DNA of 61,644 nt. Origin: Lachnospiraceae bacterium. Its GTDB lineage: Bacteria > Bacillota > Clostridia > Lachnospirales > Lachnospiraceae. A program made the translations under genes and the position numbers. Positions 6,608 through 61,644 of this stretch are shown one piece after another. The number at the start of each line of letters is the position of its first letter. Position 1 is the stretch's first letter. The notes beneath the pieces were generated by a model. That model did no database searches. It saw only the letters and a list, made by a program, of their open reading frames with translations, and was not told the origin of the DNA. The stretch is from NCBI GenBank assembly GCA_015057325.1, contig SVEQ01000015.1:1-61644 (forward strand), in the 5' to 3' direction.

Positions 6608-7879
6608 CTATGCCTCATCAATAGCCTTACCAATGTCATTTCTCATATACTTGTTATCAAAATCAATCCACTTGGTAGCTTCATACGCATTGGCTCTTGC
6701 CTCTTTCAAATCTGCGCCCTTAGCTGTTACACCAAGTACACGTCCGCCGTTAGTGACTGTTTTCTGGTCGGCAAACTTAGTTCCGGCATGGAATACATAG
6801 TATCCTTCCTTATCTTCAAATGTTTCCAAGCCCTTAATTTCAAATCCCTTCTCGTAAGATACAGGATATCCATCAGAAGCAAGAACAACACATACTGCTG
6901 CATTATCCTCGAACTGAAGATCTATCTCATCAAGTCTTCCGTCAACGCAAGCTTCCATAACATCAATAATATCATTCTTCATTCTCGGAAGTACTACCTG
7001 TGCTTCAGGATCTCCAAATCTTGCATTAAACTCAAGAACCTTTGGACCTTTATCTGTAAGCATAAGTCCTGTAAAAAGAACACCTACAAAATCTCTGCCT
7101 TCTGCCTTCATTGCTGCCATTGTTTTCTCATAAACTTCCTTCTGACAGAACTTAGCAATTTCTTCTGTATAGAAAGGACTTGGAGAAAATGTTCCCATTC
7201 CACCTGTGTTAAGTCCCTGATCACCATCTTTTGCACGCTTGTGATCCTGTGCTGATGTCATAGTCTTAATTGTTGTACCATCACAAAATGCAAGTACGGA
7301 AACCTCACGTCCTGTCATAAACTCCTCAATTACCATACGATTTCCGGCATCACCAAAATGCTTATCAAGCATTATCTCTTTAACGCCCGCTTTGGCTTCT
7401 TCCAAATCCTTACATATAAGAACTCCCTTACCCAAAGCAAGTCCATCTGCTTTAAGAACAATTGGGAAACTGGCTTTTTCAAGATACGCAAGAGCATCTT
7501 CTGCATTATCAAAATTCTCATAAGCAGCTGTAGGAATATCATACTTCTTCATAAGATCCTTTGAAAAGGCCTTTGAGCCTTCTATAATTGCTGCATTAGC
7601 ACGAGGTCCAAACACTTTGATTCCCGCTGCTTCGAAAGCATCTACACAACCGGCAACCAAAGGATCATCAGGTCCAACTATAACAAAATCCACATCATTG
7701 TTTTTGGCAAAGTCCACCTGCATATCAAAATCCATAACAGGAATATTAACGCACTCTGCTAGATCAGCAATTCCGGCATTACCCGGCGCACAATAAATCT
7801 TATCTACTCTCTTACTCTTTGCTACACATGTTGCAATTGCGTGCTCTCTTCCGCCACTTCCTATTATAAGTACATTCAT
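6608..7879 (-). CDS. purD: Phosphoribosylamine-glycine ligase (GAR synthetase)
   Basis: Catalyses the ATP-dependent joining of phosphoribosylamine and glycine, the second step of de novo purine synthesis. The 423-residue product is full length for PurD. It starts with MNVLIIGSGGREHAI, typical of the N-terminal domain, and carries an ATP-grasp core (KADGLALGKGV, EEFMTGREVSVLAFCDG) and the conserved NTGGMG and EFNARFGDPE segments. An AGGAGG lies ahead of the start. It follows purN by 25 nt in the purM-purN-purD order and is followed 37 nt later by clpC. Confidence 0.97.
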   Translation of the reverse strand: MNVLIIGSGGREHAIATCVAKSKRVDKIYCAPGNAGIADLAECVNIPVMDFDMQVDFAKNNDVDFVIVGPDDPLVAGCVDAFEAAGIKVFGPRANAAIIEGSKAFSKDLMKKYDIPTAAYENFDNAEDALAYLEKASFPIVLKADGLALGKGVLICKDLEEAKAGVKEIMLDKHFGDAGNRMVIEEFMTGREVSVLAFCDGTTIKTMTSAQDHKRAKDGDQGLNTGGMGTFSPSPFYTEEIAKFCQKEVYEKTMAAMKAEGRDFVGVLFTGLMLTDKGPKVLEFNARFGDPEAQVVLPRMKNDIIDVMEACVDGRLDEIDLQFEDNAAVCVVLASDGYPVSYEKGFEIKGLETFEDKEGYYVFHAGTKFADQKTVTNGGRVLGVTAKGADLKEARANAYEATKWIDFDNKYMRNDIGKAIDEA

Positions 7880-36137: not shown

Positions 36138-36191
36138 CTATTACTATTCACACGTACTCCTTCTTATGTTATCATGACACCAAATGAAAAC

Positions 36192-36929
36192 ATTGCTGTT
36201 TAATGCACTTTTATATATGACGGACGCGTACAGATTATCAGATGTATGCATATCCTGTGTCAGAATGAACTGTTATATACATTTTCAAAACGGACGCATA
36301 ACAAATTGTCGATATATTACATTCTGCGTGACGAGACATACGGACATAAGAGTTTCTAGGTATCTCGGTGACATTATGATATTGTACGCGGCACTGTTCC
36401 TATTCGACATCCTGTCTCAACGGAACATTCCGAACATCCATGTTCGGCAGCCGCTGTTTACTCATCGATATACCAAGAAACTCTAATATCCTCCTGAATG
36501 TCACACAGAATGTAATACACAACAATTCTTTATGCTGTCGTTCGTTTAGTAATGTATATAGCAATCTTTACGACACAGGATATTGCACACACAGATAATC
36601 TCACGCTGTTTCGTCATGTAAGAAAGTGCATCAAATCAGCTAATATGTATCGTTCGCGATGATGCGAGCCGCTTGCGGCGAGTCGCGTCTAGCGTCCGTT
36701 TAGGGACATTTTCTTGCGAAACTTCATAGCGTATATCATGCGTCGAATTATGTTGCAGTATCCATAAGCAGGTCCTTTTTGACCGCCGGTACTTAATGAG
36801 CATGAAATGCGAGTTTAGTACCGTTGCGCTCAAAACGGGCGGAAGCGTGCCTGCGTTGGAACTGCAATCATATGAGACGCATTGGAAAATATTAAAAGTT
36901 TCGGTCTTAAAATGTAACTAAACAGCAAT
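36192..36929. mobile_element. Foldback / MITE-like non-coding element, copy 1
   Basis: About 738 bp without a credible gene. The ends are a perfect 11-bp inverted repeat: ATTGCTGTTTA (36192-36202) and TAAACAGCAAT (36919-36929). The left boundary is exact because sequence identity with copy 2 (61291 on) starts at this base. Positions 36192-36332 are about three-quarters reverse-complementary to 36500-36641. Inside, 36350-36371 pairs with 36462-36484, and the centre forms a three-way junction (GCGGC 36388-36392 with GCCGC 36450-36454, enclosing TGTTCC/GGAACA and CCGAACAT/ATGTTCGG). Positions 36642-36929 are more GC-rich and hold further small hairpins. No transposase and no clear target duplication were seen. 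It could be a non-autonomous mobile element, a large structured RNA, or both. Confidence 0.65.
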
Positions 36930-36951: not shown

Positions 36952-38886
36952 ATGGCATATGAAGATTATATGAAAGCCCAGAAAATGGGACTTAAAGCAT
37001 ACAAAAGTGCAACATCAAAGGGACAATATCCATATCTTCCGGTTTTGGATGATATTCTTTCGCACTCAGAAATCGAATGCGAGGTGCGTCTTGGTGTATC
37101 CAACATTCCTTTATATCAGGTTGTAGGCACAAGTACTGCCGGAAGAACTCAGGCATTTGCCAACAATTTCATGCCTTTGCTTGACTACGGTTCAGAGTTC
37201 TCCGCAAAATGGTCCCACTTGGTGGATGCGCAGATAGAAGAAGGAATACATGATGCTGTCAAAGTATATGAATACATGAACCGCTACTATGTTGTTGAAG
37301 GAAACAAACGTGTCAGTGTATTAAAATACTTTGATTCCCCATCAATCCTTGCAGATGTAACACGTAAGGTACCAAAAAAGACTGATGATGAAGAGGTTTT
37401 AATTTACTATGAGTTCATGGACTTTTACGACCTTACAAAAATCAACTATCTCGCATTTTCCAAACTTGGAAGTTATCCAAAGTTAATTGAGACTATAGGA
37501 AAGAAACCCGGTGAAAAATGGTCAGATGACGACTTATTGGATTTCTCTTCTTTCCATACAGCATTTTATAATGCCTACAAGGAAAAAGGCGGACGTAAAC
37601 TTTCCAATATAACCTGTGATGATATAATGCTCTACTACCTGTCATTGTATCCATATTCTGAAGCAATGAACATGCCAAGTGCAGAAATCAAGAAAAACCT
37701 TGATAAAATCTGGCCTGAAATCGTTCTTCTTCAGGATGATGACTCCGTTGAGCTTTTGATGAATCCAAACGAGGAGACTCACGCAGTCAAAACCGTACTT
37801 AATAAAATCAAAACCTTAAAAAAGAGAAAGGTTGCATTTGTCTACGACAAAGAACCTTCTTCTTCCGATTGGGTGTACGGTCATGAATTAGGAAGACTTC
37901 ACCTTGAAGAAAACTTAGGTGAAATAATAGAAACCAAAGTCTACATTACCAATGGCGTTGACGATAATGCAGAAAACATTCTTGAAGCGGTATGCAGTGA
38001 CGGCAACGAAATTATATTTGCCACAACCCCAAAACTTATCAAGGCTTGTGTTAAGGTCGCAGCAAATCATCCGGATGTTAAGATTCTTAATTGTTCTCTT
38101 AACTCCTCTCATGCAACGGTAAGAACTTATTATACAAGAATGTATGAAGCCAAGTTCCTTACCGGAATTATAGCAGGTGCACTATGCTCTAACGACAAAA
38201 TCGGTTATGTAGATGATTATCCAATCTTTGGCGAGGCAGCCAACATCAATGCATTCGCACTTGGTGCAAAAATGGTTAATCCACGTGCTACTGTTTATCT
38301 TGCATGGTCAACCATGAAGGATTTTGATGTAAACGGCTTTTTCAAAGAAAGAGGCATCAGCTATATTTCTTCTCAAGACTCATTAACTCCGGAAAACGGC
38401 CAGAGAAGATTTGGATTGTACGCTGAGAAAAATGACGAAAAGAAAAATATTGCCGTACCTATCTATCACTGGGGTGCATTATACGAAGAACTCATCAACA
38501 GCATTTTCAAAGGCGCATGGAAAGACGACGAGTCAGACAAAGCAATCAATTACTGGTGGGGACTTTCTGCCGGTGTTATTGATATCATTTATTCAAATAA
38601 TCTGCCGGTTGGCGTTAGCAAATTAGTTGAACTCATGAAAAAATCAATATCATCAGGAATATATCATCCTTTTTCCGGACCGCTCACTGATCAAAACGGA
38701 TTATTAAAATGCGATGAGTACAGTGTACTTCGTCCCGAAGAGATAATGACTATGGATTGGCTTAACGAGAATGTTATCGGTTCAATACCTAATATCGATG
38801 ACCTTATCGATTCAGCAAAAGAAGTTGTATCACTTCGTGGTCTTGATGCAGCAACTCCTGACAAAGGAGGTGCTTCCTTGCTATGA
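36952..38886 (+). CDS. ParB/sulfiredoxin-like N-terminus fused to a BMP-family ligand-binding domain, no signal peptide
   Basis: 644 residues. The first residues are charged and hydrophilic, so the protein is predicted cytoplasmic. Residues ~80-145 contain YYVVEGNKRVSVLKYF (113-128), which resembles the ParB/Srx GxxR motif region where ParB binds CTP. Residues ~150-290 are helical. Residues ~291-600 match the BMP/Med/PnrA purine-nucleoside-binding fold: KVAFVYDKEPSSSDWVYGHELG, a CSDGNEIIFATTPKL segment, TYYTRMYEAKFLTGIIAGAL and GYVDDYPIFGEAANINAFALGAKM. BMP proteins are normally lipid-anchored ABC transporter receptors. This one lacks a lipobox and no ABC genes are near, so an intracellular nucleoside sensor is more plausible. 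It overlaps the next gene by four bases (ATGA), so they are one unit. ParB-like similarity is my inference. Confidence 0.78.
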   Translation: MAYEDYMKAQKMGLKAYKSATSKGQYPYLPVLDDILSHSEIECEVRLGVSNIPLYQVVGTSTAGRTQAFANNFMPLLDYGSEFSAKWSHLVDAQIEEGIHDAVKVYEYMNRYYVVEGNKRVSVLKYFDSPSILADVTRKVPKKTDDEEVLIYYEFMDFYDLTKINYLAFSKLGSYPKLIETIGKKPGEKWSDDDLLDFSSFHTAFYNAYKEKGGRKLSNITCDDIMLYYLSLYPYSEAMNMPSAEIKKNLDKIWPEIVLLQDDDSVELLMNPNEETHAVKTVLNKIKTLKKRKVAFVYDKEPSSSDWVYGHELGRLHLEENLGEIIETKVYITNGVDDNAENILEAVCSDGNEIIFATTPKLIKACVKVAANHPDVKILNCSLNSSHATVRTYYTRMYEAKFLTGIIAGALCSNDKIGYVDDYPIFGEAANINAFALGAKMVNPRATVYLAWSTMKDFDVNGFFKERGISYISSQDSLTPENGQRRFGLYAEKNDEKKNIAVPIYHWGALYEELINSIFKGAWKDDESDKAINYWWGLSAGVIDIIYSNNLPVGVSKLVELMKKSISSGIYHPFSGPLTDQNGLLKCDEYSVLRPEEIMTMDWLNENVIGSIPNIDDLIDSAKEVVSLRGLDAATPDKGGASLL

Positions 38887-61290: not shown

Positions 61291-61644
61291 ATTGCTGTTT
61301 AATGCACTTTTATATATGACGGACGCGTATAGATTATCAGATGTATGCATATCCTGTGTCTAATTAACTGTTATATACATTTTCAAAACGGACGCATAAC
61401 AAATTGTCGATATATTACATTCTGTGTGACGAGACATACGGACATAAGAGTTTCTAGGTATCTCGGTGACATTATTATATTATACGCGGCACTGTTCCAA
61501 TTCGACATCCTGTCTCAATGGAACATGCCGAACATCCATGTTCGGCAGCCGCTATTTACTCATCGATATACCAAGAAACTCTAATATCCTCCTGAATGTC
61601 ACACAGAATGTAATACACAACAATTCTTTATGCTGTCGTTCGTT
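61291..61644. mobile_element. Foldback / MITE-like element, copy 2 (truncated by window end)
   Basis: 354 bp that match 36192-36546 with about twelve differences and one single-base gap (around 96-97% identity). The match begins exactly at ATTGCTGTTTA (61291) and runs off the window. The left arm, inner stem and central junction are all present; the right part is not visible. Compared with copy 1, changes at the central hairpins extend the stems (TGTTCCA/TGGAACA and TGCCGAACAT/ATGTTCGGCA), and a T in TTCTGTGTGAC restores perfect pairing with GTCACACAGAA. Confidence 0.7.

Follow-up and report, generated by a model that had tools for sequence, protein, structure and literature searches.

What kind of feature is the 738-bp, self-complementary sequence at 36192-36929 of a Lachnospiraceae bacterium contig, and how did it get there? 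The window, meaning the whole stretch of DNA that was analyzed (61,644 nucleotides), is contig 18 of an assembly (G000) of 3.05 Mb in 24 contigs that is 99.3% complete. The original prediction, made from the letters of the window, proposed an undescribed foldback element or large structured RNA that matched no known mobile element or RNA family. Its interpretation as a foldback-type mobile element with a structured RNA was supported, but the absence of an RNA-family match was not. Two outcomes that it had named as refuting, a lack of further copies and a lack of covariation, did not occur. In our view, the sequence is likely a single copy of a non-coding element that occurs dispersed in the genome, is bounded by terminal inverted repeats (TIRs), spread by DNA-level integration, and carries the TwoAYGGAY RNA as a retained module. 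The features of the locus are collected in Table 1.

Table 1. Coordinates of the element, its parts and its surroundings in the window
Feature	Position	Strand	Remark
Promoter-like site TTCACA-17-TATCAT, just upstream of element	36147..36175	+	consensus match only
Complete element, 738 bp	36192..36929	.	two hairpins back to back between terminal inverted repeats
Left terminal inverted repeat ATTGCTGTTTA	36192..36202	+	perfect 11 bp
Hairpin 1 outer arm, 3' arm of minus-strand fold	36192..36334	-	
TwoAYGGAY RNA (RF01731), three-way junction and two loop hairpins	36335..36498	-	Rfam 88.0 bits, gathering 43
Loop 2 core CAGGAUG, 1 base short of CANGGANG	36408..36414	-	
Loop 1 core CAUGGAUG, fits CANGGANG	36435..36442	-	
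Hairpin 1 outer arm, 5' arm of minus-strand fold	36499..36641	-	
Short G+C-rich hairpin separating the two large hairpins	36660..36688	.	
Hairpin 2 with tip X (core 36761-36874)	36686..36905	+	elsewhere in genus a separate high-copy MITE
Right terminal inverted repeat, reads TAAACAGCAAT on +	36919..36929	-	perfect 11 bp
Downstream gene, Bmp/PnrA-like substrate-binding domain (PF02608)	36952..38886	+	Pfam
Second element copy, cut off by window and contig end	61291..61644	.	
TwoAYGGAY RNA of second copy	61433..61596	-	Rfam 91.9 bits

The basic architecture agreed with what had been predicted. The two 11-bp terminal repeats matched each other perfectly, and taken as 22-nt arms the ends were 77% complementary. 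A near-palindrome of about 450 nt was recovered, with 36195-36640 being 69% identical to its own reverse complement and the sub-stems I1, I2, I4, I5, and I7 within it matching at 83-94%. Its boundary lies near 36641, and 36642-36929 forms a second hairpin with a different tip. The element is also gene-less as claimed, its longest internal ORF (100 aa) having no Pfam match. Minimum free energies of the element were -305 kcal/mol (minus strand) and -294 kcal/mol (plus strand), corresponding to folding z values of -22 and -15, respectively, against 20 shuffles per strand.

The core of hairpin 1 belongs to a known RNA family. It matched all 168 positions of the TwoAYGGAY model (RF01731, model positions 1-168), including both loop hairpins, with 88.0 bits against a 43-bit threshold (E 8e-14); the statement that no RNA family is matched was therefore wrong. 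The predicted central three-way junction is likewise part of the alignment to the Rfam model and lies on the minus strand. Outside this core, an Rfam scan of the element up to E 1 found nothing; the only additional match, weak and sub-threshold, lay on the opposite strand of the core. This match, to Bacillaceae-1 (RF01690), scored 19.4 bits (E 0.91) at 36384-36446 on the plus strand, opposite TwoAYGGAY, and CsrA binding has been proposed for the reverse complement of that family too (PMC4333381).

Both loop cores of this RNA are usually kept. Loop 1 of the window copy reads AUGGAU, and loop 2 reads AGGAU, one base short of AYGGAY; the alignment column missing there is a gap in 39 of 80 unique copies, i.e., a common variant. 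These 80 copies exclude 19 of the 99 unique RNA matches, which were partial. Across them, there is almost no variation at the loop columns C-A-(N)-G-G-A-N-G (C 80, A 80, G 77, G 80, A 79, and G 80 for loop 1; C 79, A 74, G 74, G 80, A 80, and G 80 for loop 2), whereas both N positions and the stem bases vary. With the motif sought anywhere in a copy, two full cores of CANGGANG, the consensus site of CsrA/RsmE, were found in 68 of 80 copies and at least one in 77.

The TwoAYGGAY structure is preserved through compensatory change. Covariance had been proposed as a check on the fold, and among 33 diverse copies changes on both sides occurred in 21 of the 25 predicted pairs, compared to a shuffled mean of 17.1 (21 was reached in 4 of 500 shuffles). 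The covariation score, computed with a structure derived from the same alignment, was 0.638 versus 0.183 for shuffled alignments and at most 0.124 when slid, with 92.7% of cells paired. For 24 of the 33 copies, the annotated strand gave the lower single-sequence folding energy, and 30 non-redundant stems (those scoring under 30 being excluded) held 86 G-U against 59 A-C combinations, G-U making up 4% of standard pairs. Consensus folding energy was equal on both strands (-30.6 and -30.3). This strand evidence points only weakly to constraint at the RNA level.

Copies in the window's genome are numerous, end at TIRs with unrelated flanks, and have empty sites in relatives. A search for further copies, suggested by the original prediction, returned 105 BLAST pieces and 25 RF01731 copies over threshold. 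The 22-base end pattern with up to three mismatches occurred 62 times, a few of these matches looking internal or due to chance, and the reversed control once. The window element is 94% identical over 737 bp to C12:6029-6762. Seventeen elements with both ends were used for the tests below; E8 (C7:276881, with decayed ends), C2:19920, and copies at contig ends were left out. They are 387-831 bp long, and 15 of them carry an RF01731 match, the exceptions being E6 and E7; five carry two, back to back and facing outward. Identity to the best partner ranged from 79.5 to 98.4%, reaching at least 90% over 321-737 bp for 14 of the 17, with lower values for E6 (86.4%) and for E9 and E12 (79.5%). The flanks (up to 1.5 kb) showed no mutual match at E 1e-5.

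For empty sites, joined flanks of 15 elements were compared with four relatives, and five junction-spanning matches were aligned; a further one, for C24:36873 in G012, was left out. The element at C9:164391 is missing from G003 and G012, with only small gaps near the junction. The element at C9:310222 is missing from G012, where the junction includes 14 bp that the window's genome lacks; a few bases may thus have been deleted during or after insertion. The alignments for C23:40490 (G013) and C12:186458 (G012) contained more gaps. The window copy itself is old, since the same insertion occupies the identical place in the close relative G004, with the element 68-82% alike in pieces and the flanks 86 and 89% alike. 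Spacers of six other genomes lack this insertion, and their divergence precludes an exact join.

Beyond this genome, the distribution of RF01731 is patchy and usually multicopy. It was found in 13 of 60 genomes, the window's own included, and in 11 of 26 within the genus, with 1 to 25 copies per carrier among the matches listed. Among 295 genomes sampled in the order, 22 had a match (18 over threshold) and 15 of 16 same-family carriers had at least two copies, these counts being lower bounds because only nine candidates per genome were scored. No RF01731 was detected in 14 control genomes.

The ends are informative about how these elements may integrate. In the 17 elements, the bases at the ends are A+T-rich and symmetric (TAAA left, TTT right). 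There is no target-site duplication: none of the 17 had a direct-repeat score of at least 9 (mismatched pairings as controls, 0 of 272). The result was the same in G029, in which 14 of 16 fetched loci were used and two of them had no recognizable ends (0 of 12 elements; controls 3 of 132). The usual mark of DDE transposition is therefore absent from the 17 and the 12 elements. Outer ends vary by genome, being TTGCTGTTTA in G000, ACTTCC/GGAAGT in G029, and GGCWTCGGGTGTGGCGA together with AGGGA in G007 and its kin. G007, G010, and G018 hold TwoAYGGAY single hairpins with asymmetric ends, GGCWTCGGGTGTGGCGA or similar on one side and AGGGA on the other; these are another element type. The exact 22-base end occurred in only one stretch of the genome_contigs collection, meaning that these particular ends have a narrow range.

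The search for a mobilizing enzyme gave no candidate in G000. Neither the 10-base nor the 22-base pattern placed a pair of element ends around a long ORF in G000, whose assembly breaks at copies; the search for an autonomous partner yielded only a 36-bp mini-palindrome with these ends. The whole element had no match at E 1e-5 in plasmid and phage collections, and an exact-pattern search of viral contigs also gave none. Y1 is the best-known hairpin-recognizing transposase class. Mobilization of the Y1/REP kind was rejected for G000, which has no PF01797 match at 99.3% completeness; across the 60 genomes, Y1 occurs in 7 of 13 carriers and 22 of 47 non-carriers. REP/BIME elements are paired intergenic hairpins, but those of the present element are much longer. 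The missing duplications, partner ORF, Y1 transposase, and phage, plasmid, or viral match, together with the old window copy and the narrow range of its end, count against the reading as a dispersed mobile element. In its favor stand the Rfam match, the copy number, the unrelated flanks, the empty sites, the patchy and multicopy distribution, the covariation, and the near-invariant loop columns.

In outline, each element consists of one or two long imperfect hairpins; in the window copy, hairpin 1 is capped by TwoAYGGAY on the minus strand and hairpin 2 by tip X. Copies probably spread through a DNA-level integration reaction, with a putative enzyme supplied in trans, and entered A+T-rich targets, with TAA / TTA bordering the ends. 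An inserted copy would then be carried passively in neighboring transcripts, in the window presumably in the leader of the PF02608 gene, and the TwoAYGGAY tip would be the retained module.

Overall, this is a MITE-like repeat built of two hairpins, without target-site duplication (TSD), and its RNA module is a known one. Bacterial MITEs (PMC10969869) are described as short, non-coding, bounded by TIRs, inserted into A+T-rich targets, and able to form a stable stem-loop, and the element resembles them in these respects; its dispersed copies and empty sites agree with the class as well. It differs in lacking target-site duplication (0 of 17), in its two-hairpin build, and in that no parent IS was found, in an assembly that breaks at copies. 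MITEs of Coxiella have likewise been connected with small RNAs and their evolution (PMC5896051; QMITE1 is named in PMC10969869); the host is a different one, and the likeness is by description rather than sequence. TwoAYGGAY has been catalogued since 2010 (PMC2864571), where the table marks it as RNA ("y") and not cis-regulatory ("n"), and its function is only predicted in the accessible literature. Its accessible parts mention neither TIRs nor copy number nor mobility. What seems new here is that TwoAYGGAY travels on TSD-less, MITE-like inverted-repeat elements. Residence inside dispersed, TIR-bounded elements would explain the patchy, multicopy distribution of the family, and it warns against treating every copy as a regulatory gene.

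The second hairpin has a history of its own. Tip X is part of the window's element and an independent MITE elsewhere in the genus. It is a structured hairpin measuring about 195 bp and bounded by TTGCGAAAC/GTTTCGCAA, and Rfam contained nothing similar at E values of up to 1. Compensatory changes were found in 18 of 35 pairs of the predicted fold (13 sequences). In 11 of 12 sequences (one of the 13 rows was left out for gaps), the given strand had the lower single-sequence energy, and its consensus energy was lower as well (-42.1 versus -39.2). Direct repeats with a score of at least 9 flanked 13 of 17 tip X elements (controls, 6 of 272; 3 of 20 loci were excluded for lack of recognizable ends). 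These target-site duplications, at loci from G015, G003, and G005, were 9-18 bp long, most often 12. In G015, 113 tip X end matches were counted versus 3 in the control, corresponding to roughly 55 copies.

The most plausible role of the TwoAYGGAY tip is that of an RNA which binds a protein through its two GGA loops, and CsrA is its published candidate ligand. Binding of the family by CsrA, without a mobile element, was proposed in 2014 (PMC4333381), in a study that could only predict Csr-binding RNAs in this bacterial group. TwoAYGGAY and CsrB fall into the same Rfam clan, CL00106 (the E. coli csrB locus was scanned), and share paired hairpins with GGA in the loop; loops of the ANGGA type are present in the window, loop 2 being one base short. 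In contrast to CsrB/RsmY-type RNAs, TwoAYGGAY has two sites rather than many, rides on dispersed repeats, and occurs in carriers of which 4 of 13 have no detected csrA. A possible but less likely reading is that a transcribed TwoAYGGAY holds one CsrA dimer with its two GGA loops, the repeats acting as dispersed Csr decoys. In favor of this possibility are the common clan, the published prediction, the near-invariant loop columns with their variable N positions, the frequency of CANGGANG cores, the presence of csrA in 9 of 13 carriers, and, weakly, the lower folds of the annotated strand and the G-U excess.

Several results weigh against such decoys. The gene csrA exceeded the cut-off in 42 of 60 genomes and is equally common in carriers (9 of 13) and non-carriers (33 of 47), so co-distribution fails as support. 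Neither csrA nor fliW was found in carriers G002, G006, G007, and G010, an absence that is not certain because these assemblies are 70-91% complete, yet both loop cores are kept in 11 of 12 unique copies from these carriers versus 57 of 68 elsewhere. The consensus energies are alike on both strands, and promoter-like sites did not exceed chance (5 found, 3.9 expected). Orientation relative to flanking genes is mixed. Among 74 placements based on crude ORF calls, 21 were convergent, 15 divergent, 14 antisense, and 8 sense; a further 15 were excluded because an ORF overlapped them, and 1 was incomplete.

Rather unlikely, in our view, is that the three-way junction and loops form a recognition structure for the mobilizing enzyme, as folded single-stranded DNA or RNA, instead of being cargo. 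The retention of the loops across elements with differing outer ends (G000, G029, G007 and kin) and in genomes where csrA was not found would fit such a role, as would the low share of G-U pairs. However, the junction is central and not at the ends, E6 and E7 belong to the same family with no RF01731 match, and Y1 is absent from G000 and spread alike over carriers and non-carriers.

A broader idea, which we regard as doubtful, is that mobile inverted-repeat elements of Lachnospiraceae-type bacteria disperse a paired CsrA-site RNA to at least 25 places per genome, a selfish repeat thereby setting the level of free CsrA or using CsrA to control its own spread. In that case, TwoAYGGAY would be no gene family; it would be a module that unrelated kinds of TSD-less elements exchange, and tip X would be at least one more structured RNA module, hitherto undescribed, that accompanies it. 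In any case, two conserved hairpin tips on mobile repeats, one with CsrA-type loops, provide a concrete test system.

A role of the element as a cis-regulatory leader for the PF02608 gene that follows it is very improbable. The promoter-like site would place the element in the 5' leader of this gene, an arrangement that is kept in G004, and in G023 and G019 the orthologous gene is preceded by a tip X hairpin. Against this, the same sequence occurs at many unrelated loci in every orientation, the insertion is missing from the spacers of six other aligned genomes, and the TwoAYGGAY RNA is encoded opposite to the gene. Given the dispersal of the element and the mixed strands of its copies, this reading was set aside. 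An ordinary decayed inverted repeat or an assembly artifact has a negligible chance of being correct and was refuted: at least 27 of the 48 contig ends in the G000 assembly fall inside an element copy by our tally, but independent copies exist in other assemblies (at the same site in G004, and in the MAG RUI386) and covariation is strong.

Two minor observations concern single loci. The MAG Lachnospiraceae bacterium RUI386, the one named match to the element end, has an element at 7270-7561 that closely follows a gene with a GDGINDAP-like motif, which we take to encode a P-type ATPase; this position seems to correspond to the site of element C9:164391 in the window's genome. At G000:C12:25056-25091, beside a terminator-like hairpin, lies a 36-bp mini-palindrome made of the element ends TTGCTGTTTAAT/ATTAAACAGCAA with 12 bases between them, possibly a deletion derivative or a minimal element.
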